Below, piece by piece: positions 1-35,899 of a stretch of DNA of 64,000 nucleotides (position 1 is the stretch's first letter; each line of letters starts with the position of its first letter). The stretch covers positions 26,513,885-26,577,884 of the forward strand of contig NC_136003.1 of the NCBI RefSeq assembly GCF_048128805.1, in the 5' to 3' direction. The notes beneath the pieces were generated by a model that worked only from the letters and a program-made list of their open reading frames with translations, was not told where the DNA came from and made no database searches. Both the position numbers and the translations under genes were made by a program. Source of the stretch: Centroberyx gerrardi (lineage: Eukaryota; Chordata; Actinopteri; Beryciformes; Berycidae).

Positions 1-385
1 GATCTTCATCTTACAATATCAAATTCAGCGTGAATATCCTTGTGGGCTTGGAAACTATAAAGGCTTATCATAATACAGTTATGTAGTGATAAATGATAAT
101 GTGGGTAATCTATCATCTCCAACAATCTAAAACCAACAATCTAAACAAAAATCAATTACACTTTCAGGAAAGCATTAGGTTATGCTGTTTTTCTCTTAAG
201 AGGCCCTATTCTCATATAACTTACATCAGCTTGATACCATGTATTATCATACTATGAATGCAAGTCAGAGAGATTTATGTCGGCCTCAAAAGTTGGGTAA
301 ATCGAGTTTACCCTCCAGCCTCCCTCCATTCCTGCCATAAGGCACGTGATTCATTACTTTGCAACAACTTGAAGTTTTTGGTTAC

Positions 386-517
386 CTGTGCAGTTACGAT
401 GTTGGATCCTACGAATGAGGAGACTTTCCATCTTGGGACAGCGCAGCATACGATAGCTCCGACCAGGCCGAAGATCCCGAGGGCCACACACACGATCTGA
501 ACCCCAGCAGAGCCCAT
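386..517 (-). CDS. Claudin family protein, first coding exon (partial gene)
   Basis: This exon encodes 44 residues beginning MGSAGVQIVC. They form the claudin N-terminus: a short cytoplasmic start, the first membrane helix (about residues 8-27, ending in a CC pair), then PRWKVSSF and GSNIVTAQ, the start of the first extracellular loop. In classical claudins such as claudin-3, -4 and -5, NIVT(A/S)Q is followed directly by the W-GLW-C-C signature. Here the exon ends after Q at a consensus donor (CAG|GTAACC on the minus strand), and no W-GLW-C exon was found in bases 1-385, so the remainder lies left of the window. The ATG sits one base after a pyrimidine-rich tract ending in CAG (acceptor at 519/518), which suggests a 5' UTR intron. 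Claudins build tight-junction strands and set paracellular selectivity. The member cannot be fixed from 44 residues; it resembles the fish claudin-3/4/5-like group. Many claudin-3/4-type genes are intronless, so the intron here is notable. Confidence 0.8.
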
Positions 518-1237
518 TCTGCACAGGAGGTGGAGAGAGAGAGAAGAGGCATAAGAGAACGATCTACTGCTTGTTCCTGTGCTTGAGTAGATGTCTTGCG
601 CATTTCCTGAGGAAGAAGATTAGGTCTAAGATCAGATCTTCTTTCTTATTTTCCTGAGTACCACTGCTCATGAAATCTAATCTTTCAAGAGTCTCTACTT
701 TTACTTAAGCAGTTTTATTTGGAGTGTTTTTTCGCGCTTTTACCTAAATTCATTTTACTATTTGTTGTGAGAGCAGTGAATGCAGCATCATCAATCATCT
801 GTGGTAAAACACCATCATCCTGGCATTTACACGTCACGTTCAAAGGCACCGACATGGGAAAATCAATACAAGCAATACAATATTTTGAAGTACAACAGTT
901 TTGATTTTGTTTATTTGAAAGTAACCGAGTGCTTGAGCATTTAGGTTTTCTTAATTCTACTTTTAATTCACAGTACTGCTGCTTGAGTAAAATATATAAA
1001 GTTTCCCGCTTCTGGTGAGAGAGGAGGAGTCTTTTTGTATCTTCTAACAATCCAAGATGAGAGATCTGTGTAGGCGTAGCAGAGGTGCTATCGCTGTTGC
1101 ACTGTATTTTTTTCATCACACAGCTAAACACACACTCAGACAAACTCTCGTTCCCTTTGACAGGCCTTTACAAGATAGTGTTGCTCAGAGCTACATTTTT
1201 AAACCGGACTCAAGTCCTGACAGGCCCTGCCACCTCT

Positions 1238-8700: not shown

Positions 8701-11700
8701 ATCTTGTGAAATTTTTATCTCCAAAGGGATTTTGTTTGTTTTTATTCCTCCTTTTGTATGGGTCTCCATGATGTGGTTTTGTGGTTGATGCATTTGCACC
8801 GACATCAAAAATCTCCTGCACTACAGCACTACTCTACTAAGCTATGTGAGCTAGTATCTTGTTATGACAATCTGCCAGCTGCCAAAACTGTAACCCATTA
8901 TTGCATTACGGAGATGTCAGTTCCAACTGTACTGATATTATCCGATGACCACTGAGTCTGCTGAAAAACAGAAGGTAATTTGCTTTGAATTTGTTTTTGC
9001 TCTTTGAATTTGTAAAAGTTACGGAAATGGCAGATTCATACTGGAAATTACGGGGGCCAATGGTAATAAATACAATGACAGGACCTCCCGCAGTAAAACT
9101 AATCCAAATTTAGTAGGGCTGTAGTCTGCACCCTTAGTTCTCCTGTTGTAATCATCCATTTTGGGCCTGCTTGGCTTTGCTGGTTTGGCATTTAAAGCTG
9201 ATAGCATTCGGCTGTATATTAACTGTTGAACATCTGACAACTGTTCAATCAATCCCACCCACGTGTTTATTCGAGGAAGCTCCGCTCGCACCCAGCTAGG
9301 AAATAAATCTCACCGGGAACGTCGGAGGCAGTTCAGTCTTCATTGTACATAAAACCGTGAAGCAGTCTGTATAGAATTTGTTGGGTGGGAATGAGACCCC
9401 CTCATTAGTAGGCTTGTACAGTTTCTGTTGGGAGCTGCTTTGGTCATCTGGCGGGACATTTAGGAACCGGGGGCGTGATTGATTCTGTCAGTGTTACAAA
9501 CAAACCAGATTCCAAACTCCATCAAGAGCAGTCTTGCATAAGGCCACAGAGTACATGTCGTCACTGAAATATACTGTAGCTGCATGCCATCACTTCCACT
9601 CCCCAAGGTTGTAAGACTAATGTGAGACTAATTCAAATAAAACTACTCATTCTACTCATTTAAGCTGAATGAATATGCTTGCCTGCCAACAGTCTTTTTA
9701 TTCTCAGTGTTGCTCTGCAGTTTAACCCTCCTCTCCCATCAGTGGCACAATGATAATTGCACTGAAATCCCACTGGTCACTTCAGCTAACAAAACAGACT
9801 TGATGAAACACTGGGGTAAATGCTGTAGCCAAGTTATTTTTGCTTCACATTATTCTCTGTCTGTCCAGTGTTTAGTCATTTGAGTGTTAAAGCGGTTGCT
9901 AAAACATTTGCAGAATGTTTTTTTTTTTTTTTTAATTTGAGTGGATCATCCTTCAAACAGAGCTGCTCTTGTGAAAAGTGAGTGCCCTTTGCTAACAGAT
10001 GTCTGATAACATGACTGTAGTTGGGCTTTATCCTCTGGATTCCTTAGTTGAGCTATATTGAACTAAATATTCTCCAAAATGCACATTGGAATGAGAATTG
10101 TTTTCAGGAGACGGATTGATTAGAAATCAGTAGGGAAGTTACAAATCCATAGATTTTTTTTGTTTGTTTGTTTCTTTAATCAAAGGGGTTATTTTAGTTT
10201 TTTGTGGGGGTATTTCTCTGGGATATACTGTCATCTGTGTGCTGCACCTAACTTTCTTAAGTCAGCACCATTACAACACATGGGTATCGATTTTGCTTTC
10301 ATTCAAGTAATCTGACAGACAAATAAATTGGGATACTTGTCCAAATCCTTGAAAACATTTGCGTTTGGCTCCACTTGTTCAGTGTGAAACAGCATGAGAA
10401 CCAGGGAGTTGACAAACCTGCTGAATTCTTCAGATAGCATCAGCAGCTAGCCAGATGACAGGAACCGCATGATCTTCACATGATAACTTTACTGTTTCTT
10501 GTTCGGGTTTATGATATGTAGGCCTTCTTACGTGGTCTTATTTGCTTTATGTGAATTGGTGGTATTACAGCCCATGGCATGTTTTTTTTTCTTATTGAGT
10601 GAGTCTTGCTCCTTTGCAGTGTCTTTGCTATGGTTACATCAGCTGCTAGAAGGGGGAGGTGGGGTTCACATCTTTTCTCCTAGCCTGGGTTTGATCAGCC
10701 ACATAAGCAGACAGACTTGCGTTTTTCTGCAAACCACCCTACATCAGTCTAGTTTCCTCTCATCCGTTTTTCTCAGATCTGGCCTGCCTTCTCGCTTCTT
10801 GCACACGTTCATCTCGTTGTGTTGTGGTTTGTTGAACAGGAAATGTATGTTTCATCAGCGGCTGATGGGGCTCCAAAATTCACCAGCCAACTTTCAATAT
10901 TTAAACAGCCAACTAGGTTTTTAGAACGGCAGGACCTCCAAATGATGCTTGGTTACCTGCTAGAGAGCACTAAACTTGCCAGCCACAGCCGGAGTTTTCC
11001 AGCATTTGGCTGGTGGGTGGTGTTAACTTCCCAGTCTGGTTGAGAAATGCTCGAAATTTGGGGAGCACTGTCCTTCATGTCTGTTTCATCCACTGTCTCT
11101 ATACTTTCAAGTCTGAGCACAGCGTGTCTCTGTGGTGTCCAGCCATCATACAACCTCTGTGTGTTCAGTCTGATTTGTCTTTTCTAATCCCTGCCCTGTA
11201 TCTCCTCTCTCCAGTCAAGGGCTCTCGGCCAGGGAAGAATGTCCAGCTGACAGAGAACGAGATCCGCGGCCTTTGCCTCAAGTCCCGTGAAATCTTCCTC
11301 AGCCAGCCAATCCTGCTTGAGCTAGAGGCTCCACTCAAGATCTGTGGTGAGTCCTAATTAACACGGTGTCAGTGAGTTACAGAGATGCCACAGGACGATG
11401 TGTGTGAAGTTTAATCGAAGCCAAGAGACTACACAGTAGACTCACTCTGAAACACTCTGGCCAATACATACAGTTTTTGCAACATGGTTTACCAGCCAGT
11501 CTGTTTGTCTGTTAATTGCCAGTTGTATCAGGTGATGAGTGAGGACCTTTTATGTAATAGCAGCTACACCCAGTCGCAGTCAAGGTGTGGCTTTTAAATT
11601 GTACCTGTCTGCTGCCCCCTGCAGGTGATGTCCATGGTCAGTACTATGACCTGCTGCGATTGTTTGAGTATGGAGGCTTCCCCCCAGAAAGCAACTACCT

Positions 11701-14451
11701 GTTCTTGGGCGATTACGTAGACAGAGGGAAGCAGTCGCTGGAGACCATCTGCCTGCTGCTAGCCTACAAGGTCAAATATCCAGAGAACTTCTTCCTGCTA
11801 CGTGGCAACCATGAATGCGCCTCTATAAACCGCATCTACGGCTTTTATGATGAGTGTAAGTGCAGAAGGCGACCCTGGACACACAAACAAAACAAATTCA
11901 TACTGTGTTGCACCCAGTGCTCATTTTCTCCCCCCCCCTTTGCAGGTAAGCGACGGTATAACATTAAGCTGTGGAAGACCTTCACAGACTGCTTCAACTG
12001 TTTACCTGTGGCTGCCATTGTAGATGAGAAAATCTTCTGCTGCCATGGAGGTAAGCATTGACTGTGTACACTTTTTTCCTTTTTAGCACTTTTGTTGCTA
12101 TAAAATGTTACAATGCCTAAATTAGGTCATATGAACTGCAGTAAGATGGGTGTATGATGTGTGCTTGTCCTCCATCCAGGCCTCTCTCCTGATCTCCAGT
12201 CTATGGAGCAGGTACGCAGAGTAATGCGACCCACAGACGTGCCTGACCAGGGCTTGTTGTGCGACCTGCTGTGGGCCGATCCAGACAAAGACGTCCTGGG
12301 CTGGGGAGAAAACGACCGTGGCGTCTCTTTCACATTCGGGGCGGATGTGGTGGCCAAATTTTTGCACAAGCACGACATGGACCTTATATGCAGGGCACAT
12401 CAGGTAAAGAATTCCACAGTACTGTGTAGGAGTGAAAAGACAGAAGGGCTTTGATGGTGGTACTGAAAGTGGTGGATTTGTCTCCCTTTGACTTTCTCTG
12501 AGAGAAATGGTGACGTGTCAGTACTGGTATTGAATTTCAGTTCAACATACACACACTCGGACACCAAAAAAGAGAAATAATTTTGATTAATTCCATGACA
12601 AATAAAAAAGACACGTGCCATTTAATTAGATTACCACAAAAATCTAATATTCTGTGCAATGCTCAATGTCCATAAAGAGTATTGTGGTATTTGATGGTAC
12701 TCGCAGTGAAGTACTCCTGCTTGGTCAGTAAAAACAAATGTCAACAGTGTACCTCGAAAGGGAATCGGTTGTAGTCTGTTTTGCTGCTTCTGCTTTGTTG
12801 CATGTAGTTTTGACAACCTTCTCGTCTCTCCTAAGGTGGTAGAAGACGGTTATGAGTTCTTTGCAAAGAGGCAGCTTGTTACTCTATTCTCGGCTCCTAA
12901 CTACTGCGGAGAGTTTGACAACGCCGGTGCCATGATGAGTGTGGACGAGACGCTCATGTGCTCCTTCCAGGTGAGTAAGAGGGATCCAGTGTGTGTAATG
13001 GTTTTATTTGTAAGTGTTATTTTTTTTTTTTCTTCTTGGATTTCAAGCATTTGCCGTCATTACCCCGCCTGTCATGTAAAGGTGCACCAATGGTTAGGGA
13101 TGTCCTGATCTGAGTCATTTAATATTGTCCCGATCCAATGTTTTTGTTGCATTTTATTTTTAAACAATTAAAAAGCTGTGCGCTACAAGCATCACTCTGA
13201 TGGATCTAAAATCAACCAAACCAAGTTAGGAGAGATGAGCTTAATACTCAGTTACATAACTGCATTAAGAATAAATGGCCTAAAGCATGGCTGCGCTTCT
13301 TTTATCTTTAATCATCTTTGTCATTGTTATGTTCAAAAATGAAAGTATAAAAATAAATACCTTTCCATTACACTAACTACCACATGCCATCACATAGCCT
13401 ATGTTTACTTACTAGCTCATGCCTGTACACCCCGGTGCCGCTGAAGGCTCCTTTTTGAATGAATCTCCTCCTGGCTGCGGTCAAATATTTTAGAATACTG
13501 CTCTGCATTCCAGGAATATACTGAAAACATAAATGAAACTTCTTCTATATTCGGCGTCATCTTTAACAGCTGAGCAGTGTAAATAAATGCTTTTGCATAT
13601 CTTGTGTTGCTTAGCAACAGCAACAATAGTGATTTGTGTGTGAAAGGGTACAAGCTGGCAGATTGATGGGTTGCTAAAGGCAGGTGAATGGGTTTAGAAC
13701 TAGCAATGCCGCATTTCCAATAACGCCGGTTTCTCTGTCTGAATGTGGCTTAACATACGAAAAGCGGTGGTGGATAATGCCTGTTTACACTACATTTTTT
13801 ACTACAATTAAATGGAGCAGAGGGAGAGAAATTAAATAAATAAATGGATCGGGATTTGATTGGGCGTCATGTAGTTGATCACGTCAGATTCTGATCTTTG
13901 ATATCAGCTCGAGACATCCCTACCAATAGTATCCAATAGTATTGGGAGTGCTGATCTAGCTCCTAAATCCTCAAATTCAGATTGGCAAACTTGCCAGTGT
14001 GAATACTAATGAAATGTGCTTTGGTGCAGTATAAAACTTTTGTAAAAATGTTTCATGACTTGAAAGTGCTGCCCAGTTCGTAGGCAGAGCAGCTTTTGTT
14101 TAGAAGAGCAGTCTTAGCTATGAAGGCTAAATACAGTTCTGTTTTATTGGTCCTAACCTGCTATACTGTTTATCCGTTAACCTATTCTGACTAAGAAGAA
14201 GAAGACCTACTTCATAATGTATTTAATATTATTCTGAAAAATCGGTGCACCTCTACTGTCATGCATTGCAAAGTTCAGCCTGTGTGTCTGCATCTATATC
14301 TGTCTAAATGAGAGCGTCTTTGTCTCTCTCCCAGATTCTGAAGCCAGCAGATAAGAAGTTGTATTCTTACGGCGGAGGGGGCGGAATGGGATCCGGGAGA
14401 CCGGTCACCCCGCCGCGAAATTCAGCCAAGGGCGCCAAGGCCAAGAAATAA
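5514..14451 (+). CDS. ppp1ca: Serine/threonine-protein phosphatase PP1 catalytic subunit, alpha type (complete, 7 coding exons, 332 aa)
   Basis: Coding exons: 5514-5568, 11215-11346, 11625-11855, 11946-12050, 12180-12403, 12836-12970, 14335-14451. All have GT-AG introns and join in frame to 999 bases. The product is the PPP-family metallophosphatase core that removes phosphate from Ser/Thr as holoenzymes with regulatory subunits. Signature motifs are intact: GDVHG (D64, H66), GDYVDRG (D92, R96), GNHE (N124, H125), the metal-binding histidines H173 and H248, and SAPNYCGEF with Y272. The tail, after ILKPADKK, has a Gly-rich segment and [11 protein letters not shown], with T319 equivalent to the inhibitory CDK site T320 of human PP1-alpha. 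The RNSAK...KK ending favours alpha over beta or gamma, whereas the start [18 protein letters not shown] reads more like gamma. Length matches human alpha (330). The start ATG is in good context (AAAATGGCG). The alpha call is fairly sure; which fish co-orthologue is not. Confidence 0.96.
5569..11214 (+). other. ppp1ca: ppp1ca intron 1 (5.6 kb)
   Basis: Begins GTGAGT and ends in a pyrimidine tract with CCAG. It holds GCTAGC-type palindromes at its left end, a poly-T tract at 9919-9935 and mostly unique DNA. A 90-codon minus-strand open frame at 9019-9291 has no recognised domain. No other exon was found. Confidence 0.8.
11215..11346 (+). CDS. ppp1ca: ppp1ca coding exon 2
   Basis: Encodes [16 protein letters not shown] through [10 protein letters not shown]. 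Acceptor CTCTCCAG, donor TGTG|GTGAGT, entering and leaving in phase 1. Confidence 0.96.
11625..11855 (+). CDS. ppp1ca: ppp1ca coding exon 3 (metal-binding core)
   Basis: Encodes [46 protein letters not shown]. Acceptor CCCTGCAG, donor GAGT|GTAAGT. The Cys and Lys of YDECKRR are completed by the next exon. Confidence 0.97.
11946..12050 (+). CDS. ppp1ca: ppp1ca coding exon 4
   Basis: Encodes (C)[18 protein letters not shown] to EKIFCCHG and carries the metal ligand H173. Donor GGAG|GTAAGC. Confidence 0.96.
12180..12403 (+). CDS. ppp1ca: ppp1ca coding exon 5
   Basis: Encodes [20 protein letters not shown] to DLICRAHQ, including the phosphate-contacting Arg of NDRGVSF and H248. Donor CAG|GTAAAG, phase 0. 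Confidence 0.96.
12836..12970 (+). CDS. ppp1ca: ppp1ca coding exon 6
   Basis: Encodes [36 protein letters not shown] and LMCSFQ, covering the beta12-beta13 loop (Y272, C273) that contacts microcystin- and okadaic-acid-type inhibitors in this family. Donor CAG|GTGAGT. Confidence 0.96.
13095..13922. mobile_element. Non-autonomous hAT-like DNA transposon in ppp1ca intron 6
   Basis: The 828-bp segment starts TAGGGATGTCCTGATCTG and ends in the inverse, GACATCCCTA, a terminal inverted repeat of at least 10 bp. It is flanked by an 8-bp target duplication with one mismatch: CCAATGGT at 13087-13094 and CCAATAGT at 13923-13930. Eight-bp duplications and TAGGGATG/CAGGGATG termini are typical of hAT-superfamily elements in fish. 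The interior has no transposase frame. The orientation is intronic, so the gene is unaffected. Confidence 0.8.
14335..14451 (+). CDS. ppp1ca: ppp1ca terminal coding exon
   Basis: Encodes [18 protein letters not shown] and [20 protein letters not shown], then TAA. The TPPR phosphosite is kept. The Gly-rich linker differs from the human alpha tail. Confidence 0.95.
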   Translation: MLKPADKKLYSYGGGGGMGSGRPVTPPRNSAKGAKAKK

Positions 14452-22984: not shown

Positions 22985-23020
22985 ATGCTGATGGTGGGAG
23001 GCGATGGACGGATGCACTAG
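22985..23020 (+). promoter_or_regulatory. Short upstream ORF overlapping the kmt5c start region
   Basis: ATG at 22985 opens an 11-codon frame ([11 protein letters not shown]) ending TAG at 23018-23020. It overlaps the first in-frame main ATG (23004) and stops one base before the second in-frame ATG (23022). The main frame has a TGA at 22989-22991, so no main-frame start lies further upstream in this exon. Confidence 0.5.
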
Positions 23021-23116
23021 AATGAGTGTGAAGGAGCTGTGTGAGACTGATGACCTGGCTACCAGTCTGGTGCTGGACCCTCTGTTGGGCTTCAGCACCC
23101 ACAAAATGAACATCAG
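23004..23116 (+). CDS. kmt5c: kmt5c coding exon 1 (gene exon 2)
   Basis: Encodes [18 protein letters not shown] to [11 protein letters not shown]. The exon begins at 22984 (acceptor TGCTTTCAG) and ends AG|GTATGT. The start at 23004 is the first in-frame ATG after an in-frame TGA; 23022 is an alternative start in similar context. Confidence 0.88.
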
Positions 23117-26100
23117 GTATGTCACCGCTAAAGACATGTCAGGTCAAATGCTATTAAAATCCTAAACGCTAAACTTGAGTGGCATAGTAGTGCTTATAAT
23201 GTTGATTATGTCATAATTTCTGCTGTGTTTACATGTGAACACACATTTTGTTCATGCATTGGCTGGTTGTAGTTTGGGTGGGCAATGTATGAGCATGCCA
23301 TCAGACACAAGACTTGTTCCAACGGTGTCTTTGTTTTATATACAACCACAGAAGAGAGACATTTCTTTATCAGAAAAATCGTAGGGTATGTACTCAAAAC
23401 AGGCCATGGAGCGCATTTTTCCTTAAATCTGTGGTTTGCTGCTCTTGGAAGTTGCAACTTTATTTGTTCCAATTGGCAACTGGTTTTGCAGCAGATATTA
23501 AAAATGTTATATAAAACCATAAGACTTGACAGGCACAAAAAACAATCTGTCTTAAACTTGTTGGACACTTTTTACAACTCTCAGCCATTTGTGCACTCCA
23601 TGTGTAGTGCAGAGCTCAGCAGTGATCAAAACGAGCAATATTTTGGGTTGATGTTCATTGCAGCAGTCCTAATGGAAAGACGTTTTTTCAAGTGATCAGT
23701 AACACATATAGTGAAATACAGCAACAGTGGATGTGTTGTCATGCCAAGAGTGGACACACAGTGATGCTTTTATGATCGTATAAAATAGCATTGAAATGCC
23801 AGGTATAACCATAGCCTTTGACATAGAGACACCTTGTACTAACACAGACTGTGTTTAGGTTGTTGTATCTCTCCTTATGTGGTATATCTCCCCTTTCTCT
23901 TCTCTTAGTCCCCCACCAGAGGTCCGGCGTTGGGGTAACCTCAAAGAGACTCTGTTGCGCTTCCAGCGTACGCATGACTTCAAGGCTACATTTGAAGCGC
24001 TGACGGTGGGGGAACTGGCCGGTGACTACTTCAATGGTTTGGGAAGCCATCGACAGGAGCTGCTGAGACAACATGTGGGTTTATGTTTCCCTCTTTGTGC
24101 GATTAGTTGTAATATTCTTCGGTCCTAGTAGTGGGTATAAATCTGAAATAATGTTGCTCAACATAGTGCATAAAATCACATTTAAAAACATGTTCACATA
24201 AAATACAGAGATAGTAGTCGGCTGATTCTGTAGGACACTTTAGTTTTGATGTCTTCCTCTTGCTATACCTGCGTTAGTTTTACAGGACTGTAGCTGTGAT
24301 TCTTGAAGTTGTCTGTTGAGTTTGAGAACACATAATCTAAACCATCCATGATGTCCGCAGGTGTATCGCTACCTCAGTGCCTTCCTGTTGGATAGCGGTG
24401 TCAAGATAGAGTCCTGCAACAGATACTCCTCAGAGACCAACGGAGCGAAGATAACCTCAACAAGGCACTGGTAATCACTCACACTTTTTTAACATCGAGT
24501 TTATCAAGGCAGCGTGAGGTCGAACAACAACCGCTCCGATTTCACACATTGCTGAGAGTCCTGGACTGTGTGTGTCTTACAGTAGATATATGACTCTTGG
24601 ATTGCTGTACCGTAGGTTTATAGGTGAGCGGGTGGAGGTTCTGCAGGGCTGCATAGCGGAGCTGAGCCCCGCCGACAGTGCTGTTCTGCAGGCAGGAGTC
24701 AACGACTTCAGCGTGATGTACTCAACACGCAAACGCTGCGCTCAGCTCTGGCTTGGGCCTGCTGCTTTCATTAACCATGGTGAGTCTGTCTGCATCTGTG
24801 ATGCTGTGTATCACCCTTTACACACACACACCCACACACACACACATACACACACACACACTAGAGATTGCACCAGTACCAAATTTTCAGAAGTGATGTG
24901 ACTACTGATCCAAGTGCTGCTCAATTTACAGTCCTACATGGCACCCAGTATTGGGCTACTTCAAACCAATTACAGGAGCAGGTGTTGTGAATCTATTGCG
25001 TTTTGTTTATTCATTTCATCAAATTTTGCACTGGCCGTCTTCATTCAAATATAAACATAATAAATGCTCATAATAAAATAGAAAATAGGCTGTGTAACTA
25101 AGGTTAGAGGATAGAGCTTCTCATTTTTTACACCAGTCAAACACTTATTGATGGACTCTCAAAACCAGCCTATTCAGAATGGGATAACAGATAAAGAAAA
25201 GTGTAGTAGGTTAGGCCAAATAAAACAGAATGGTATTCAGCCTTCATAGCCAAGGTTCCTTTTCTAAACAAAAGGTTTTCTACCTCTGAGTTTCACAAAT
25301 GGCAGCGTTTCAGCTTTTTGACATATCAGGGTGTTTTCCCTCTCACCGGAAAAGTTTTAAGTGTCGTGGATGCAGGACAGCTTAATTTGTGGATCCTAGC
25401 ACAAGTGTTTGGATTGGCACCGATCTCCATACTACAGATATTATTGAGGCATCCCTAATACACACATGCTGTTGGTTTTCTGGGTTCCTCCATAGATTAG
25501 TTAGGTACTCTCCAGACTTACAGTAAATACACTATCTTGTCCTGTAACTCTAAGTTTACAGATTTGATCTCCTGAGAAAGCTAGTTTCCATCTTAACTGA
25601 AGTGTTCATCATGAGTGGCTGCTCCTCTACTGTAAAGTATTTGACCTGTTGACTTTTTGCACATTTTCTTGTGCTAAAAAGTACAGAAAAGTTTTTTTTA
25701 AGGATTTACATTTCTGTCGCACCGCTCGTCATTGTCACATTTGGGCCAGGCAGCCAATCAAATCAAGCACAAGCTTTCCTTCCTGTTTTGATGTGGTTTG
25801 ATGTGGTGGGATCGGCGGGACACTGGCAAACACACATGAAAAGCTGATATTAGCGGTCTTTAACCCGGTCGCACACGCAGCCCTGCTCCACAGGCGCACC
25901 AAGCTGTTTTGCCCGACGCAGTCTGCCGAGGCGTTTCTGACGCGGCTGCGCCTGTGGCGACGCTTCTCGGTGTGATCGCCCCCTAATGCTGCAGCACACT
26001 GTGGAATAGTGTGTCACTAGTGTGTCACTTACGGATGACATTTGATTTGAATGCCTGGGGCTTCAGAGAAAAATAAACTATCATCCCTCCCTCGCTGTAT

Positions 26101-29100
26101 ATAAAAAAGTCCAGAGGGTCTCTTCCTCTTCTGAGTTTAGTGAAGTTACTGAAGACATTTTTTACAGAAAAGACACACTGAAGAGTGCCTCGTCTGTACT
26201 TTAATAATTCTACTACACCTGGAGAGCACTTTGCGTAGATTTTACACCAAAAAACCCAAATAAGTGCATTTTGAACTAATTTCGTAGCACAGGAAAATAT
26301 GCCAAGAATCAAGGGGGGTGGTTACTTTTTATAGCCGCTGTATGTATCTGTCTCATCTGTCTCAGAGGGATAAACATAGCAGCAAATAACTGCCCTGTGT
26401 GTAATATGGTGACTTGGCGCTTTAAACTCTTAATTTCATTACATAAGCATTTGGTCAATCATAAGTCATTACAACAGATAAGCCTAAGCAACTTGCTTTT
26501 CACAGACCATCTGTCATTACATGGTGTGTACTGAATTTTCAGGAGCACAAAAGGTCCAGTGAAATTAGTGATCCAGTCAAATTTCTTTCGAGTTAATTCT
26601 TCCATCCATGCTTGCATAGAGGTCGGCTTCTGACAAGATCTTTTAATAATGTTTCGGAGCTAATCAGCTTAGCTTTGAGCCTTTGTGAAATCAAGTGCAA
26701 GCCAGATGATCAGCAAAATGATATGCCCCTTATTCATCTGTATGATTTAAATTAATAACTTTAAAATTTTTATCTCTCCCGTTCTCTCATGATGTCTCTT
26801 TGTTTCTCGTTCTGGCTGGAAGACTGCAGACCCAACTGCAAGGTAATGAGCAGTATTTATTGATCTCATGTACTTAAGAGGTTGGACACTTACCACATAA
26901 TTGACATTTAACTAGCTTAAAAATGCTCACGTTGGTTGCATAATCTATTGAGATGTATTATTGTGGTATTCTGTTTTTTACAGTATTGAAATTCATATTG
27001 TAGATAGATATCAATATAGAATTATAGTCTTGAAATCATTTCCTCTCACTCTGCTTCCTTACTGCTCTGTGTTGTAGTTGTTATTCCCATGGGCCAACAA
27101 ACCTTTGTCTTTGTCTTTTGCTCTGTTTTTTTCCCTTTTCTCCCGCCCAGTTTGTCCCTGGTGAGAAGAATGGTGCTTGTGTTGAAGTGATCCGACCCAT
27201 CTCACCTGGGGAGGAGATCACGTGTTACTATGGTGCCAGCTTTTTTGGGGAAGGCAATGAAATGTGTGAATGCTGCACCTGTGAGAGGTGTGTACAGCAT
27301 CAGATCATAATGCTCTTATCTAGCCAGGTTTTTGTTAAAATCTGTTTTGAGAAGCTTTTGCCTACCAGACATAGTCAAAATATTATCTGGTTCACTTTTA
27401 GCTGGTTAAAGTACGATTTTTTTTTTTTTCTTCTAATTTTAACCATTCTGCAGGAGAGGAGAGGGTCACTTCAGACACAAAGGGAAGCAGCCTGAATGTG
27501 AAGAAACAAAGGACTCTGTGGGCCAAAAGTACCGTCTGAGGGAGAGATATCTTCGTCAAAACAGAGAGAAGGGCCACTGCCCTGCAAGGCCGGCTATTCC
27601 AGGAATACACTCAGGTATCTTCAAAGGTAACCGGTGCAGGATTTTCTCTGAAATCATCTTTGGAAAATCTCTTATTGATAATGATAGTTGTAATAGTAAT
27701 TGCTAGTATAGCAGTGACGAAATTACAAAGTGCTGTTAAAATACAAGGAACAAAATAAATATTAACAGCAGCTAATATAAACAGAAGACTTGCATTTCTG
27801 GCTCCCTAAAAGCCCTCTCAGCACAACAGAAATGGCACAAGACATAGGAAGGGGAATATTATCAGAACAATGCAATTATATAGTAGAAATAGCAATAATA
27901 AGAATAATAAGAGCTTGACTGTCTGCTCAACAGTTCAGTGGTCTCTTAGTGCACCATCAAGTTGAAGCCCAAAGGATAACTAATTCTGCTGGTTCGTTAA
28001 GGCCCACTCAACAAAATTTGGAAACCCTGCAGGACTGCCAGTGTTAACATTTCAATACCAGTATAATGTAATGAGAACAATAACAACAATTATTTAACAA
28101 TCTGTTAAATACAAATGTATAAAAATGAGATTTCAGCGCTTGCTCATTGTATTGCCTCACGCAGGTTGGTCCGGCGTTTAGAGGCCCTGATCACAAAAGC
28201 TCAATCACCTCAGAACAGGCAAAAGAGCTTTTTGTGCTGATCCTGCACTTTACAATGTTTCTCTTTTTTGGGAATTTTAAGTCAGCTTTGGGAATTTTTT
28301 TGGAAAATTTAGGAAGTCTATTTCAGTTAGGTTTTTTTTTTTTTATCAGGTAATTTTTTTTTATCAGATCATTGTGTGAGGAGATGTCTGAAGCCAGAGC
28401 TGAGAAAAGGAAACAGTATTATAGATCCCACTTGCTTTGTGGATAAGATCTGCCTATTTACAATTTGTAGCCCTGGGATCAAATTCTACTTGCACATGTC
28501 CTGCTCAAAAACATGATGCAATTCAGATCAGTGCGAAAAGTAAAGCAGACTGGGGTTTGAACTGGAGGCGATTGGTGGACAAGAAAAGGATGAGTATAAA
28601 TATTGCAGAAGATTCTGAGAAAGTAAAAAAGCCCATGCAGTTTTCAGTTTATAAGGTGAAGGGAGCACATATCGCTTTGAAGTATCTTTTTATGTGTTGA
28701 GATGCTTTTGGTTGTGAAAAAAGTCATATTGAAAATCCTTTGCTGAATATTGTGATTTGCGACAGATGCAGACTCCACTTTTTATGTGATGTTACTTTTT
28801 AGTAATTAGAAACACTAAATTACACAGAAATGCTTGGTTTACCAAATTTGTGTATAATGAAAGATTGTAGGACTGGCAGGTGTTCTGCACACCATTCAAA
28901 AATATGGTTTAGATGGCCCAAAACACCTTTCAGGCCAAAATGCAGCCTTTTGCAATTTGGAAATTGCAGCAGTCAATATTTAAATTGTTTTTCAACCTTA
29001 GTTGTTGGATACTATATTTGCTTAATTCTCACACTGGGAAAACAGCTCCTAGCTTTTAAATACTTGCCATTGGAATTGCGATAACAACCATTGGCGCCAA

Positions 29101-32100
29101 GTTCTGTGATCCGCTTTCTATCAGCTTTCATTGTTTCATTTCTGTGCTACTTTTGATGTTTGGCTTATCCGTTTACCAGAGGGAACAAGGAATCAAGCCT
29201 TAGAGCCCTTAATTTAGACCAAATATAAGTACAGTGCAGATCATTAGGACTGTAGCTATAATGGCTACAGTTGCTTGTTTTTGGCCAGTACAAATTTCAG
29301 TGATATATTAACAATAAAATCCTGTATAGGACTGGGTATTATTTGAATTATTTTTTTTTTTTTTACCAAACCTTGTATTAGACCTGGTAACCTCGATATG
29401 TGTATTAATCATATGCAGCAAGTACACTTTTAGCTTTATTTATATAACATTTGCTCTTTCTTACCTAACACAGTGCTGAAGGCAAGAGAAACTAAGTGTA
29501 GAGGGGTGACAAAGTCACCAGTATCATAGCCATTGCTGGCTATGATTGATTTATCATTTCCAGTAAGGAAGCTGCACTGAGGCAGTGTTTTGTTCATTTG
29601 CGTTAAAGCATTGCACATAAATATGTACTTCACATTGTTGCTTTGCCAATCACAAGATGAGACAACACTGATATCAATTGGCTTTGAAAAGAAAAAATAG
29701 TAAATAGTAAAATGAGGTTCCTGGATGATATATTGAGAGGTGGCACTGAATGTCTTTACACTTTTTAGTACTTAGCATTTTAATGTGATATGGTCAGTAC
29801 ATACAAAGTATGTACCCAGCCAATACCCAGCCCTATACACTTTCCAGCCTATAGAATTGGATATGATTTATCATATTTAACTGGTCTTTCTGTTAATATG
29901 TTTGACAATTGAGAACTTGAGCTACAAATGGAAAATGGGGTTGCATAATTTAGATTGTCCATTATAGTTTTGTAATGTTGTCATTGTTTAAAAATCTTGG
30001 ATTTTCGTGCACTTCTTATCAAGATATTCACATTAGCAGAAAAAAAGCTTTTGTATAGAGCAGCCTAAGTTCAACTGTGTTTCTTTGTTCTTGTCTCCCA
30101 TTCATAGCCATCCCCTCCAGGAATTCCTTTACCCAGCAGATGAAGAGAAATGCCTTGATGAGCAGAAAATTGACACGGACAAAGAAGTGGAGACAAGAGA
30201 AGCACAGAAGATCAGGAAAGAACCCATTCAAATCCTCCACAGTCAAACAGTGCCGGACAGTTCCACTTCTATCACAAGTTACACTGAGGGACCTTAGAAT
30301 CAGAGTACGGCGCCACACAGTGGATTTCCTACTTCATTGTAAGGACCCAAGAAGCAAAGAGAGGGCTTTGCTCCAACTGCTGGAAGAAGTGAAGCCAAAA
30401 GATAAAGAGTCAAATGAACTGCACTTGGCAAATGAAAAAGCTGGTGAAGAAAATAACAGCAGTGGTAAAGCTATTGGTGAGGTAAACTTGAAGCCTTTCA
30501 CTCTAAATTCCTCTGTGTCTTTTCATGAGAAAAGTAGGCCGGTGGTTAGTGGCGCAAGCCCTAGTGGGAAGTCCCTCAAAGTGGTAGACGGACAGGCAGT
30601 TCACTCAAGGACCTCTTCAAGAACAAGGAGCATGGTTCACACCGTGCTCACACATCAAACAGGGTCCAGTAACACAACTAACACTACAACTGTTTGTCAC
30701 CCTGTTGAACTAGACAAAAGCAGCAATGCAAATTCCCCCAAACAAGAGAACATGGACAAAACAATCACAGATGGCCATGAAAACAAGTGCATAAAAGTTG
30801 GTGATGGCACCAAGTGCAGCAGCAATGTGTCCTGCATCACTGGCACGGCTCAAAACCCAGTGACTGAGCAAACCGAGCACAAGACCGTCAGCGCTCCATC
30901 ATCCCTCTTGATGAACAGGACACTTTCAAATAAACTCACAAAGGAAAGTGTTGAGGTTTATCAAAGTGTCTCAGATGGATCAAAGAAAGCTGGGGACAAT
31001 CCGCTAATATCACTGAAGCAATACCTTACGGTGAACTTAACAAGGGTATCAGTGCCACAAAGTGTAGAAGCAGAAAAGACCCATGAAGACAAGAAAGGAA
31101 AAGTGGTGGTAAGAGGAAAGATCAGACAGAGCCAGCGGACTAGACCAGTGCCTCTGACAGCACAGGCAGAAACCAGAGTGTCCAGATCTCAACAGAAGCA
31201 GGGAGGAAGCTCAGAGATCTCCACAGCTGAAGGTAATAGAGGGGTGAGGGAAATGTATTTCAAGGCCATTGATAAAGTTAATGTAAGGAAGAGACAGGCA
31301 TGTGAGGCTGTAGATGATTTATCATGCAGTGAGAAAAGAGGAAATGACAAAGTCATTGAAATACAAACAGTCTCAGGGGAAGATAAAAGTTGCATACAAA
31401 TGGAGCAGCAGAAAGACATTATTAATGGCAAAGTTGAAGCGCAAAAAGAAATAAGTAATGCTACAACAACTCCAGTTGTGGAATGTAAGAGTAAAGGGGC
31501 CCTGGAAGAACGGAAAGAGTCAGAGTGTGAAATTCTGGGCAGTGAAACGCCTAGAACAGAAAATAACATGCAGTGTGTTAATAATAAGATCAAAGGTGCA
31601 GGTATGGAAGGGGGACTTGGTAAACCATTAGAACGAATATGTAAGAGCAAAATGGTCAAGAATGTGAGTAAAAATTCAGCAAGTAGGGGGAAGGAGGATA
31701 TTGTCATAAAACAAGCAAGGGTTCTGCTCTCTGATTTTCTAAGGAAAGATAAAACTGATAGAGATAAGAGATTAGAGGGAGATACTGTTGGAAGAGGGAT
31801 TTCTACCTCAGCTCATAAAGAAATGGAATATGGCAACACGACACAAAGCTGTGTTGAAGAACCGTCTGAAATACATGGAGACAGACATTCTTGTGCAGTG
31901 CAGGAGAGGAACGTAGGAAGACGAAGGGGGAGGCCTAGAGCAGCAAAAACGAATGCTGAAGATAAACAAAGCATTAAGGGACACTTACGCAAAGAAGTTA
32001 TAGCTAGAATTAAGACTGAGTTAAAACAGGATAGTTTGCAGTTTCAATCATCACAAAGGCATGATGAGTTATTCGCCACCTGCCCCAACCCACCAGGTCC

Positions 32101-35100
32101 TTATCAAGAGTCATTAACTTCAACAAAAGCCGTGACTAATCTGCATCCAGACATCAATCCACAGACGCACATACAGTCCAACATTCCTCTGAAGAAACGT
32201 ATGTTTCGCAATTCTGTGGATATAGACTCTGAACAGGGTTTCAATTCTCCTGTTTCTGACCAAGCTTCTAAAGAAGCCACTGAATTAAACTCTTCCACAG
32301 AGCAAAGGCAGGACCTTTCTCTGTGTTCAGGTGAGAGAAGCAAATTGACGAAAGATGGTAAATGCAGATTTAAGAAAACTGATGCCCAGAAGCAAACCCC
32401 CAAAAGGACTACTAAACAAAACTCTGGTAACCGGTGGCTTCGTTCCAGAGCTAATGAAGTTCAGCGAAGCCATCTACTGAGGAGAGTTCGAAAGTGTAAA
32501 TTAGAGAGGCAAGATGAAGACCAGATTGACAATGCTGAGACACAAGAGAATGATGAGCTTGCAGAGGACAAACAAGATGAGGATCCTGCTAAAATCCAAC
32601 AACATTGTGGCAAAGGTCCAAGTAAAAATAAATTTGCAATGGAAGATGGGGTGGAAATTTCACCCCTCCAGCAAACCTGTTTGGAGGAGGAGACAAAGCA
32701 GGACCTCAATTTCAAGATTCGTTTTAAGAGAAAGAGGGGAAAATTGTGGGAGCTGGAAAGCCCAGCATGTGAGGATTTGTCATTAGATACAGAAAAAAAA
32801 GCTGATTCACTGACATGTGACCCTTTTAAAGCCATCATGGATTCTGTATCAATTTTGAACATGGAGATGGAGGCAGCTCAGGCACATGTGCAAGCTAGTA
32901 TGAAGTCAAAGGGTAGATTGCATCGTTTGAAAAGGAGAGGTCAGAGGTTGAGGGAAAATCAAGGGGTGGATTTCTCTGCAGACCTAAATTCAGAGGAGGA
33001 CCAAGACCTTGAAAATGTAGAACATGTATGTGGACCTAGTGGTTCTCACAAAGACAAGGTGGAAATCAAGGAGAAGCTAGATAGGGAGGTATTAGGGGGA
33101 GTTAAGCAGCTACCAGAAAAAGGAGATAAAAATGCTGGTGAGACTTTGTCTGTTGTAGGGCAAAAAGCAAAAATTGAAGATTCTGTTGTAGGGCAAAAAG
33201 CAAAAATTGAAGATTCTGTTGTAGGGCAAAAGGCAAAAATTGAAGATTCTGTTGTAGGGCAAAAAGCAAAAATTGAAGATTCTCTCTTAGGGCAACAAGC
33301 AAAAATTGAAGATTCTGTCTTAGGGCAACAAGCAAAAATTGAAGATCCTTTTGTAAACAATAGTTGCTATTTTGAAAGTGGGGCACAGCACAAACAGGAG
33401 CCTGAATTGAAATTCGATGGATTTCCCTTACCAGTAATTAAACTGCGGAGAAAGGTAGAAGATATTTGGGAGGTAGATTTCAAGAATGAGAAGCAGATAG
33501 AAACGGAACCTAAGATAGAAACCAAGGTTACAAAAGAGATGAAGCGTCACATTGTAGGGAAAGAGAAGAAAGGATTGGTAGATTTTGGCAAGCTCAAAGA
33601 AGAGTGCCCATCTTCTCAGAAACTGAACAGCAACTTGGGCCCTCTGAAAACAGAACCTCCACCTTTGTCCTTGTCCCTCTCACCATTGTCTCTATCCTCC
33701 CCTATTAATGACAGTAAAGCTCAAGTTTTAGCATCTGCTCCTGATAGAATCACTGAAAGGCCAGTGCTAGAGATAAGTAGTGGAGGAAGGAAACAGAGGC
33801 ACAAAATGGAGAGAACACGCAAGAGTGGGACTGAAACGGAAACACCCACCACTTGTCTTAGTCATACCCTCCAACAAATTGACAACAGTCTTTCCAGGCT
33901 CTCTGAGGGCTTGTGTGCATCTCAGGCCTTGGAAAAGACAACAGTCTATTCCAGTGGTTCTACTTCTGTCATCCAGCCCCCGTCCCAATCTCCACCGTTC
34001 ACAACCCCAGATAATATGCTTTCCACTGAGCCCAGCTTTACAAACTGCTGCGATGATATTTTGGACTTTCAGTGTCTCAATTTTGAAGGATATTATCAAC
34101 CACAGAATATACTTCCATCTTCTCCATCAGATCTATGTCCATTGGAGCCACCCACAGACCCCTTCAGCAGTCCCCTCTCTCACAGCCCCTCTGACACATG
34201 GAACACTGAAACGCCATACCTTGGCCCTCCTAGTCCAGGAAACAACTTCAATAGTGAGGATCTGCAGTTTTTCCCAAGTCTCATTTCTTCCAAAAGTGAC
34301 TCTCTTCCTCTGGAATGTGAAGTGAAGGATACCTCCAAAGACAAAAACCCATCCAACTCCAACTTCAATTTTTCAGCTCTAAGCAATGTTGAGGTGACTG
34401 CTATGGATCGATTTTTGAGTAAAAATCCAGGAATGAGACTGTCCAAAGAAGACCCCAAAACACAGTCCATGCCTGTAGTAAGCAAGCCTCGGCTGTTTTG
34501 TGCGACCTCTTCTGCTGTTACATCTCAATGTCCTATTATTCCAGCCCAACCCTCCAGTCAGATCATCAATGTCAAAGCTAGTACTAGCCAGTTAAAGGCC
34601 CAGTCTCACCTTAAAACCCAGGGCCCCTTCCATCGTATGAGCATTCCCAACAAATCTCAGTCTTTTTCCAATAGTCAGCCAAACATAGTCAGAGGAGTGC
34701 CCCACAGTTGCTCAACTAAGCCCGTCCATTCACCTCAAATGGCTAACAAATTCCTTTCTTCTCAACTTTTCACTGTGAAAAATCCCAATCCTGCTGACAA
34801 TTCGCTGAACTTCCAGGACAAAACCTCTACAGTCATCCATAGGGTGCTTAAGTTTCAAGGAGGGAAGCAGAGTCAGAATTTGTGTAGTGCACCATTTAAA
34901 GACAATGTGGCTGCTGGCAGCCCTATTTACATGTCCAAAACAGTCAGTGCAAAATTGGGTGATATTGAGAAGACCCAGCAGAGGCAGAAAGTAGGTATAA
35001 GTACAGACTACCATAAAGGTAACCTTTCAGTTCAAGGATATACCTCTGAAAAGGATGTAGGTCACATTAGTTCCTCCTGCAACCCCATTAGGTCAAATTC

Positions 35101-35899
35101 TCATAGCAACAAAGGCAACTCTCTTTTCCCCCAGTCTTTCAATAAAAGTAAAATGTCATCTGACAGACCCCAGAGTATTGAAACCAATTTGACACACAAA
35201 AACTTCTCTACGCTGCCAAGGCCCTTCTTCTTTCCTAGCAAAGTGTCTGAGAGTTATGGGTCACCACAAAGCAAAAGTTTGAACCAGGATAAATCCACTC
35301 CATCGACCCCAGACAAACACCAGCCATGTTATGCTCAGCACGACCCTTTTGATTTTACTTTTGCCACATCTCTTTCTCCTTCTATGTCTCAGCACAATAG
35401 CCCCCAAGTGGCCCACCATACACCTCCTGGAACACCAGCACCAGCACACAAGAATCAGTCCTCATCCTCCTCCACCTCTTTCCCTTATGGCTATCAAGGT
35501 CCTCCTTATGTACTAAACTTCAGTGGAGATCATTCAGTGACCCTGGGTCTCAGGGATGGGGCTGAGGGTCTGACTTACCCAGGGTTAGGCCCGACAAACT
35601 ATACCTACCATTGTCTGATGGAGCCATCAGGCACCCAAGGGAGGCTTGTCCTTGAGCCCTGTGGACCCCAGCTCTCAAACTCAACAGCTTTTTCTTTGGG
35701 GGGCTTTTCAGGGCTCAGAGGTCAGGACGAACATTGCAGGAAGGACATGCAGCAACAGTGCCAGCCCGGTGACCACCCACCAACATCACACTATGGACCT
35801 GTTACATCCTCCCACTCCATGGGTGCCACAAAACCCAAGAGAGTGAGGCTAGTGGTGACAGATGGCACAGTGGACTTAGATCTCCAGTACTCGGACTAA
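23004..35899 (+). CDS. kmt5c: Histone-lysine N-methyltransferase KMT5C-like (SUV420H2; H4K20 di-/tri-methylation), complete, about 2,220 aa
   Basis: Coding exons: 23004-23116, 23909-24074, 24361-24470, 24616-24779, 26823-26842, 27151-27287, 27454-27614, 30108-35899. They join in frame to 6,663 bases. Residues about 9-240 hold the SUV420 N-terminal region ([25 protein letters not shown]), the SET core ([32 protein letters not shown] at 181-190, GEEITCYYG) and a post-SET cysteine cluster (C230, C232, C233, C235). [10 protein letters not shown] after HKMN, HVYRYL, and the C-terminal [17 protein letters not shown] fit KMT5C better than KMT5B. Family enzymes convert H4K20me1 to me2/me3 in heterochromatin. 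The 1,929-residue last-exon region is Lys/Ser/Glu-rich and probably disordered, with an AT-hook-like GRRRGRPR (894-901), a 6 x 11-residue repeat (1306-1371) and KxE motifs. It makes the protein about five times human KMT5C. The SUV420 family is certain; the c rather than b paralogue is likely. Confidence 0.93.
23909..24074 (+). CDS. kmt5c: kmt5c coding exon 2
   Basis: Encodes (S)[16 protein letters not shown] to [10 protein letters not shown], the helical N-terminal domain. Acceptor TCTCTTAG, donor CAT|GTGGGT, leaving in phase 0. Confidence 0.93.
24361..24470 (+). CDS. kmt5c: kmt5c coding exon 3
   Basis: Encodes [16 protein letters not shown] to [13 protein letters not shown]. Acceptor GTCCGCAG, donor CACTG|GTAATC, phase 2. 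Confidence 0.93.
24616..24779 (+). CDS. kmt5c: kmt5c coding exon 4 (SET core), with an alternative in-frame acceptor at 24583
   Basis: Encodes (W)[16 protein letters not shown] to GPAAFINH. The acceptor at 24615/24616 restores the conserved H/AW...E..E..GCIAEL alignment. A second acceptor (GTGTCTTACAG, 24582/24583) is also in frame and would replace W with C and insert 11 residues. Donor CATG|GTGAGT. Confidence 0.9.
24820..24861. repeat. (CA)n microsatellite in kmt5c intron
   Basis: CA units with a CC and a TA interruption. They end exactly where the hAT-like element at 24862 begins. Confidence 0.9.
24862..25457. mobile_element. Non-autonomous hAT-like DNA transposon in a kmt5c intron
   Basis: Starts TAGAGATTGCACCAGTACC and ends in the inverse ...GGCATCCCTA, with a GCACCGATCTCC segment further in that mirrors the left end. 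It is flanked by ACACACAC (24854-24861) and ATACACAC (25458-25465), an 8-bp duplication with one mismatch made inside a CA repeat. The low-complexity flank makes the duplication less compelling than that at 13095. No transposase frame. Confidence 0.7.
25888..25957. repeat. GC-rich perfect inverted repeat (11-bp arms)
   Basis: CCACAGGCGCA at 25888-25898 and its exact reverse complement TGCGCCTGTGG at 25947-25957, separated by 48 bases. They lie within a CpG-rich island (25848-25985) in an otherwise AT-rich intron. Probably a transposon relic. Confidence 0.75.
26823..26842 (+). CDS. kmt5c: kmt5c 20-nt microexon encoding the SET NHDCRPNC centre
   Basis: Flanked by acceptor CTGGCTGGAAG and donor AAG|GTAATG. 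It completes Asp (G|AC) and adds CRPNCK, giving FINHDCRPNCKFVPG, the SET signature, only when included. Skipping would shift the frame. Confidence 0.9.
27151..27287 (+). CDS. kmt5c: kmt5c coding exon 6 (SET C-terminal half and zinc cysteines)
   Basis: Encodes [34 protein letters not shown] and [10 protein letters not shown]. Acceptor CCCGCCCAG, donor AG|GTGTGT, phase 2. Confidence 0.95.
27454..27614 (+). CDS. kmt5c: kmt5c coding exon 7, with an alternative in-frame donor 12 bases downstream
   Basis: Encodes (R)[16 protein letters not shown] to [12 protein letters not shown]. Donors CAG|GTATCT (27614/27615) and AAG|GTAACC (27626/27627) are both good and both in phase 1. The longer form inserts GIFK. 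Confidence 0.88.
27627..30107 (+). other. kmt5c: kmt5c intron before the giant last exon (2.5 kb)
   Basis: AT-rich with T-runs (28330-28360, 29349-29365). Nothing else recognised; open frames at 28437-28700 and 28830-29084 have no family motif. Confidence 0.65.
30108..35899 (+). CDS. kmt5c: kmt5c giant last coding exon (1,929 residues plus stop)
   Basis: A single uninterrupted frame of 5.8 kb after acceptor TTCATAG. Early residues ([20 protein letters not shown]) are basic. The rest alternates Lys/Glu-rich and Ser/Pro-rich segments without globular domains that I recognise. Landmarks: AT-hook-like core 31916-31939; I-K-T-E and L-K-Q-D at about 32009-32032; six-copy repeat 33152-33349; L-K-T-E-P at 33644-33658; an aromatic/acidic [16 protein letters not shown] segment near 34060-34110; the tail [19 protein letters not shown], homologous to the KMT5 C-terminus, just before the stop. 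The conserved tail argues that the whole frame belongs to kmt5c. Confidence 0.9.
33152..33349 (+). repeat. kmt5c: Coding minisatellite: six tandem copies of a 33-bp unit
   Basis: Exactly 198 bases, six copies encoding (V/L)(V/L)GQ(K/Q)AKIED(S/P). Copies 1-4 are almost identical in DNA; copies 5-6 carry CTCTTA/GTCTTA and CAACAA variants, so the array looks recently expanded at its left side. Confidence 0.97.

Follow-up and report, generated by a model that had tools for sequence, protein, structure and literature searches.

The window analysed here is a 64,000-nucleotide stretch of Centroberyx gerrardi DNA (NCBI RefSeq assembly GCF_048128805.1, contig NC_136003.1, positions 26,513,885 to 26,577,884 of the forward strand), and all positions below are counted from its first letter. 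It contains a gene of the KMT5 methyltransferase family, best matched to KMT5C (SUV420H2), whose giant last exon encodes a tail of about 1,930 residues. Motifs also found in shark and amphibian KMT5C occupy the first third and the very end of this tail, and blocks conserved among teleosts lie between them.

The gene and its giant last exon

The open frame extends from stop to stop over 30059-35899 on the + strand (1,946 codons), and the other five frames across the exon carry 59-172 stops each. The last exon occupies 30108-35899, which is 5,792 bp with the stop codon included, and its acceptor (tcccattcatag, with CC following from 30108) matches the phase of the donor at 27614. Seven upstream exons, located via phase and GT-AG sites, complete a model of 8 exons with GT-AG splices and no internal stop, spanning about 12.9 kb with introns and encoding 2,220 residues, among them an intact SET domain of the Suv4-20/KMT5 type. 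The protein ends in DLDLQ, then YSD, then the stop codon. A first-pass annotation, made from the letters alone, had given the start, end and tail sequence of the exon correctly. The exons are as follows.

23004..23116, + strand: exon 1, with the start codon, ending in HKMNI (placed by reading frame and gtatgt donor; aligned to PDB 3rq4)
23909..24074, + strand: exon 2, N-flanking portion of the SET region
24361..24470, + strand: exon 3
24616..24779, + strand: exon 4, SET core with FSVM (F161, S162, M164)
26823..26842, + strand: exon 5, a 20-nt microexon for DCRPNCK in the SET core (placed by pattern search and phase)
27151..27287, + strand: exon 6, SET end and post-SET (F192, Y218)
27454..27614, + strand: exon 7, with a second donor at 27626
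30108..35899, + strand: giant last exon, residues 291-2220 and stop

The introns on either side of the DCRPNCK microexon measure about 2 kb and 0.3 kb. Among 315 collected proteins, FINHDC-x-PNCK is followed directly by F in 242, and none has extra residues at that place. The alternative donor of exon 7, 12 nt downstream, adds GIFK, a form present in 43 proteins of the teleost list (194 proteins taken from the list of a search with the exon and from the long-range list of a search with the human SET domain, both described below).

Residues 5-247 match human SUV420H2/KMT5C (PDB 3rq4) at 343.6 bits (E 9.2e-102, phmmer), and KMT5B chains, ranking next after mouse SUV420H2 in this PDB search, score 318 bits or below. 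By sequence the protein is a KMT5 best matched to KMT5C, in line with the first-pass call. The substrate and product specificity of Suv4-20h2 is attributed to Ser161, Phe191, and Tyr217 (PMC3874154). The equivalents are S162, F192, and Y218, invariant in 20 of 20 aligned teleosts, and an active H4K20 methyltransferase is expected. The names KMT5C and KMT5B are already on these teleost proteins in RefSeq and UniProt. Two kinds of label look like annotation errors (P0151, P0152, and P0166 are among the entries concerned): 'serine-rich adhesin for platelets-like' for several carp-family KMT5C proteins, and KMT5B for several from teleosts.

The search with the exon gave 175 homologues, and all organism-named matches among the best 120 of 175 listed are teleosts. 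Of these 120, about 110 align over 93-100% of the exon with 46-75% identity, the best named match among those listed being Myripristis murdjan (2,140 amino acids (aa), 73% identity). Complete proteins, with SET start and terminal motif, make up 147 of the 194 in the teleost list and have a median of 2,077 residues. All 12 'lgn' entries with a SET domain hold SET and tail in one open reading frame (ORF), on contigs of 6,596-8,181 bases; one of the 12 ORFs begins at the second methionine. Because contigs of 6.6-8.2 kb compare with a gene of about 12.9 kb including introns, these entries are read as assembled transcripts, and 'lgn' presumably stands for such read assemblies. The 12 read-through contigs and the 175 homologues therefore exclude a chance ORF, and the long exon that the first-pass annotation took for real protein is shared by relatives.

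The frame is intact in most homologues, and a few models are shortened inside the exon: those of Aulostomus, Enoplosus, and Symphorus lack about 370-900 residues there, and Xiphias isoform X3 falls 185 aa short of X2. In addition, the Mugil X2 and Anabas X2 models stop early. These cases speak against one fixed form and may represent minority splice forms or model errors. The internally shortened models also fit the proposal that the main mRNA splices out most of the exon. However, complete models below 1,800 aa number 4 of 147 (Aulostomus, Enoplosus, Symphorus, and Hemibagrus) and the 12 transcript-like contigs hold the whole ORF, which makes this proposal extremely improbable.

Elsewhere in the window, metallophosphoesterase exons lie at 11561-13105 (+), with Pfam Metallophos matches in 11561-12058 and 12158-12451; their letters resemble a PP1 catalytic subunit. 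A frame at 311-619 (-) has what we take to be a claudin-like start, MGSAGVQIVCVALGIFGLVGAIVCCAVPRW, and no Pfam match at 0.01.

Length, motifs and blocks of the tail

The human SET sequence was used as a query in two length ranges. The long-range query covered about 1,195-3,801 aa (best 120 of 226 matches listed), and the short-range query covered about 500-1,591 aa (best 120 of 1,296 matches listed, with a floor of 361 bits), so that mammalian KMT5C below about 500 aa lies outside the latter. Named matches in the long-range list are teleosts throughout, and they include Anguilla (2,574 aa), Arapaima, Brienomyrus, Alosa, many Ostariophysi, Esox, Salvelinus, and Takifugu. Among the short-range matches listed, KMT5C has 803-850 aa in sharks, rays, and Callorhinchus, 901 in lungfish, 756-826 in frogs and a caecilian, 1,066 and 1,073 in two salamanders, 546-852 in reptiles, 517 in one bird, and 499-576 in mammals; KMT5B entries follow the mammals, mostly at 770-950 aa with one of 581. 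The tail after the SET domain comprises 567-614 residues in cartilaginous fish, 520-845 in amphibians and lungfish, and about 1,900 in teleosts. Human KMT5C has about 460 aa, and the mammalian tail has a few hundred residues.

These sequence lengths identify the KMT5C tail as a teleost-clade expansion, about 2.5-fold over most listed KMT5C outside mammals and squamates. Change probably went in both directions, with mammals shortening the tail and teleosts lengthening it. The first-pass annotation had put the protein at five times the mammalian length and called the tail special to fish. The giant size stands; the magnitude was overstated, since most of the non-teleost KMT5C listed, mammals and squamates aside, has 750-900 aa. 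Among the lineages covered, the long tail is restricted to teleosts; sharks, rays, and the chimaera are listed at ordinary lengths.

When the window is compared with 22 chosen teleosts ranging from eel and arapaima to pufferfish, the tail shows thirteen short islands (A-M) in poorly conserved surroundings. Its main parts are listed below.

30248..30370, + strand: module A, residues 338-378, with Phi1-type LRDLRIRV; common to shark and amphibian KMT5C
30392..31006, + strand: linker, residues 386-590, poorly conserved
31004..31051, + strand: module B, residues 590-605, Phi3-like motif; common to shark and amphibian KMT5C
31697..31744, + strand: module D, residues 821-836, VIKQARVLL; common to shark KMT5C
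31754..35821, + strand: region of blocks E to L, residues 840-2195; six of eight blocks unmatched in other tails tested
32174..32227, + strand: block E, residues 980-997
32708..32758, + strand: block F, residues 1158-1174; weak KMT5B-tail match
32819..32878, + strand: block G, residues 1195-1214, predicted helix
33422..33478, + strand: block H, residues 1396-1414; barely above shuffles against KMT5B
33854..33916, + strand: block J, residues 1540-1560, short predicted helix
34028..34282, + strand: block K, residues 1598-1682; 1601-1680 at 0.97 mean majority frequency, equal to SET
35483..35674, + strand: block L, residues 2083-2146, predicted beta strands
35831..35896, + strand: module M, residues 2199-2220, KMT5-wide terminal motif, predicted beta hairpin

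BLASTP with the window protein recovers the eel, arapaima, and pike tails. The shark, lungfish, amphibian, reptile, mammal, and KMT5B proteins included in the test yield a single match past about residue 355, to the terminal motif of one tortoise, and profile comparison supports the SET-adjacent region and the terminal motif as common. Each module was also tested separately against 40 column shuffles; the reptile control was left unused owing to one artefactual shuffle. No shuffle scored as high as A (338-385), B (575-615), and M (2195-2220) against shark and amphibian tails, or as D (815-845) against the shark tail. The shark positions of A, B, D, and M (178, 346, 400, and 587) follow the teleost order. 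Modules A and B have no match in KMT5B tails, either in the shuffle test or in a pattern count (0 of 9 KMT5B). The amphibian match of D aligns to the place of A, and the two modules may be related; D against KMT5B scores slightly above all shuffles (15.5 vs 14.6).

C, E, G, I, J, K, and L are indistinct from shuffles in every non-teleost or KMT5B tail tested, and F, and barely H, exceed all shuffles against KMT5B only. The new part of the protein is thus mainly residues 840-2195, a stretch of eight blocks of which six are unmatched in the other tails tested. The first-pass annotation had placed the shared parts at the two ends; the SET domain and terminal motif are indeed shared, and they are not the sole ones, as the exon also contains the ancestral modules A, B, and D. 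Blocks F and H are similar to each other and, weakly, to basic motifs of the KMT5B tail, and could form an internal repeat.

An alignment of 82 of the 120 listed homologues with the window gives segments 1541-1560, 1601-1680, 2081-2100, 2121-2140, and 2201-2220 a mean majority frequency of 0.96-1.00, the level of the SET domain, and spacers mostly 0.4-0.7. The motifs of L, K, G, and E occur in 182, 182, 162, and 190 of the 194 teleost-list proteins, respectively, and in 0 of 120 proteins of the short-range list, which extends from sharks to mammals and KMT5B. Albula has a diverged L block. One could suppose that most of the exon is neutral filler and that the SET domain and a few motifs are what matter; spacers 840-980 and 1000-1155 do retain as little as 4-17% identity to the window in Labeo, Alosa, Anguilla, Arapaima, and Brienomyrus, and 18-26% in Esox. 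In these six fish, however, block K retains 42-72% and block L 62-77% identity, and the presence of the four motifs in 162-190 of the 194 proteins likewise makes filler very unlikely.

Another possible origin of residues 840-2195 is capture: an unrelated gene or a transposable element would have inserted ahead of the terminal motif and made the protein a fusion. The new part is bounded by the ancestral D and M, and the six blocks without a counterpart in other KMT5 tails tested are consistent with such an event. On the other hand, Pfam families beyond SET occur in no more than 1 of 20 members scanned, and the named matches among the 120 of 175 listed are all teleost proteins labelled KMT5C or KMT5B or uncharacterised, although a donor gene could escape this length-limited search. 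Capture is considered unlikely.

The giant-exon tail is Ser/Lys-rich, which retains the Ser and Lys of the Lys/Glu/Ser/Pro-rich composition given in the first-pass annotation. No Pfam family besides SET was found in more than one of the 20 members, and no globular domain had been recognised at first pass either. An AlphaFold2 model of residues 1021-2220 (30 sequences) assigns a predicted local distance difference test score (pLDDT) below 50 to 1,027 of 1,200 residues, which agrees, for the part modelled, with the disorder suspected earlier. The main ordered exceptions are helices at 1196-1242 and 1317-1361 (the latter in a tandem repeat) and strands at 2091-2140 and 2202-2216. A second model of residues 2067-2220 alone (80 sequences) has strands at 2091-2096, 2121-2128, 2134-2142, 2202-2208, and 2211-2217, with a mean pLDDT of 58.6. 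No significant PDB structure match was found for the modelled tail. With modest confidence, these models suggest that the terminal motif and the teleost-only block L form beta strands together. An in-frame 33-bp tandem repeat at 33149-33355 (+), with 6.3 copies at 93% match, has extra copies that are gapped in nearly all aligned relatives, which suggests a recent expansion.

Change of the SET domain and orthology

A tree of 42 SET regions unites the teleost proteins in one clade (100/100). The teleost stem carries 0.65 changes per column, compared with 0.066 on the sarcopterygian stem and 0.15 on the shark stem, and branches within teleosts are short; evolution of the SET domain was fast along the teleost stem and slower thereafter. 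At eleven SET positions teleosts have a different residue that is fixed or nearly fixed. Against human KMT5C, the teleost SET domains score 336-356 bits (listed entries, 120 of 226), while most shark and ray KMT5C score 404-410, Pristis 389, and Callorhinchus 385 (among the matches listed), and even the listed KMT5B proteins score higher than teleosts, at 361-369. Such scores would suit a third KMT5 copy that dates from the early genome duplications of vertebrates and survived in teleosts alone, the ordinary KMT5C having been lost there. The best tree places the teleost clade with sarcopterygian KMT5C (94/75), which opposes a third copy, and two other placements, each with an approximately unbiased (AU) test p of 0.23, leave room for it. 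Further evidence against it comes from the tail, as A, B, D, and M stand in shark KMT5C order and A and B have no KMT5B match; this motif order favours orthology with KMT5C. Moreover, no second ordinary KMT5C of a named teleost appears among the 120 of 1,296 matches listed, though a short or fast-changing one could escape a list that starts at about 500 aa and ends at 361 bits. A third copy is decidedly unlikely.

Heterochromatin motifs and the proposed function

Mammalian KMT5C is kept in heterochromatin by short HP1-dependent motifs, namely Phi1, His-Cys, Phi2, a linker, and Phi3 (PMC11723951). The linker is variable, disordered, and low in charge, with lengths from 21 residues in placental mammals to >300 in frogs, whose Phi3 lies >300 residues past the first module; long linkers hold extra hydrophobic motifs (PMC11723951). 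Among 23 teleosts, the window included, a relaxed Phi1 pattern is found in 22, the window among them. A strict Phi3-like motif (Lx5VxL) is present in 15, again with the window, and its core is at the aligned place in 23 of 23. The linker between the Phi1 and Phi3-like motifs has 130-295 residues and a fraction of charged residues (FCR) of 0.18-0.37, below that of the next segment in 22 of 23, and its net charge per residue (NCPR) is zero or above in 19 of 23, which agrees with the tetrapod bias (PMC11723951). All 23 also have a [VI]xL motif in module D, and 11 of 23 have a PxIxL-type site in block H. A His with a Cys within the next 8 residues occurs in 20 of 23. Such short HP1-type patterns are leads. 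In line with the chromatin-targeting role suggested at first pass, the first third of the tail retains motifs that resemble parts of the HP1-binding retention domain, of which His-Cys and Phi2 are lacking.

Similar to mammalian KMT5C/SUV420H2 (PMC11723951, PMC2701926), the teleost protein has the SET domain, the specificity residues, a terminal motif of KRLRLVV..GSIDLD type, a Phi1-type motif, a Phi3-like motif in most teleosts, and a variable linker whose net charge is not negative in 19 of 23. In contrast, its tail has about 1,930 residues rather than a few hundred, His-Cys and Phi2 were not found in it, and E-L have no detected counterpart in the mammalian protein. The KMT5C-like proteins of sharks, rays, and chimaera (803-850 aa among those listed) share the order of A, B, D, and M, but they have no match to C, E, G, I, J, K, or L, are under half the length, and do not have a comparably long SET stem. 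KMT5B/SUV420H1 has in common the SET fold, the KYxLRET stretch, the terminal motif and, weakly, F and, barely, H; unlike the teleost protein, it has no match to A and B, and its terminal motif is of the LIVGKDSIDIDI type.

The reading we lean towards is a teleost KMT5C (Suv4-20h2) in which a methylating SET domain is joined to a long disordered tether with docking blocks. The SET part would add the second methyl group to H4K20me1, like its mammalian counterpart, and the tail would act as the tether. Its first third would retain the ancestral KMT5C motifs, with Phi1- and Phi3-like hydrophobic sites binding the HP1 chromoshadow domain and the variable linker joining them. The remaining stretch would have arisen on the lineage toward teleosts and bear conserved docking blocks, the small beta unit of block L and the terminal KMT5 motif among them. 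What the analysis shows directly is the gene structure, the single protein, its conservation, the order of the motifs, the lack of the teleost blocks in the other proteins examined, and the rapid change of the SET domain on the stem. Catalysis, HP1 binding, and partner recruitment are what we infer from the sequence: an HP1 tether, lengthened and partly rebuilt, in the first third, and extra docking through E-L of partners that KMT5C elsewhere does not use.

Several results weigh against this reading. The His-Cys motif, with mammal or amphibian spacing, was found in 0 of 23 teleosts, and Phi2 (Lx5-6VxL) in 1 of 23, or 5 of 23 with a relaxed pattern, the window being in neither group. Strict Lx5VxL often arises by chance, with 1.04 per tail compared with 0.63 in shuffled tails. 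Module B may be an extra hydrophobic linker motif rather than the published Phi3, because the amphibian match to B lies nearer than the frog Phi3 spacing. The charge of segment 1690-2080 is even lower than that of the linker, and low charge is thus not linker-specific. The pLDDT and the predicted template modelling score (pTM, 0.30) of the beta unit are low, and the tree accommodates the two other placements described above.

A broader version of the tethered-enzyme reading, tentative and held with less than even confidence, is that the whole of KMT5C was remodelled on the teleost stem, with a fast-then-slow SET domain, lack of His-Cys and Phi2, and gain of a docking region of about 1,350 residues and the beta unit. 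If true, an H4K20 methyltransferase would organise teleost heterochromatin and serve at the same time as a large scaffold; we know of no other animal that uses KMT5C in this way.

A literature search found no paper remarking on the teleost KMT5C tail. Maternal expression is listed for zebrafish suv420h2 (PMC2200798), and a heat-treatment study finds tilapia kmt5c up in gonads at 15 days post-fertilisation (PMC10939319). The published tail survey names mammals, birds, reptiles, amphibians, and more distant eukaryotes, and the word 'fish' is absent from its main text (PMC11723951).

Mammalian KMT5C serves as a model for how a disordered tail holds an enzyme in heterochromatin. On the sequence comparisons above, teleosts appear to have rebuilt this core heterochromatin enzyme, which calls for caution in transferring mammalian KMT5C knowledge to fish models. 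The conserved islands without a known domain mark where new function should lie.

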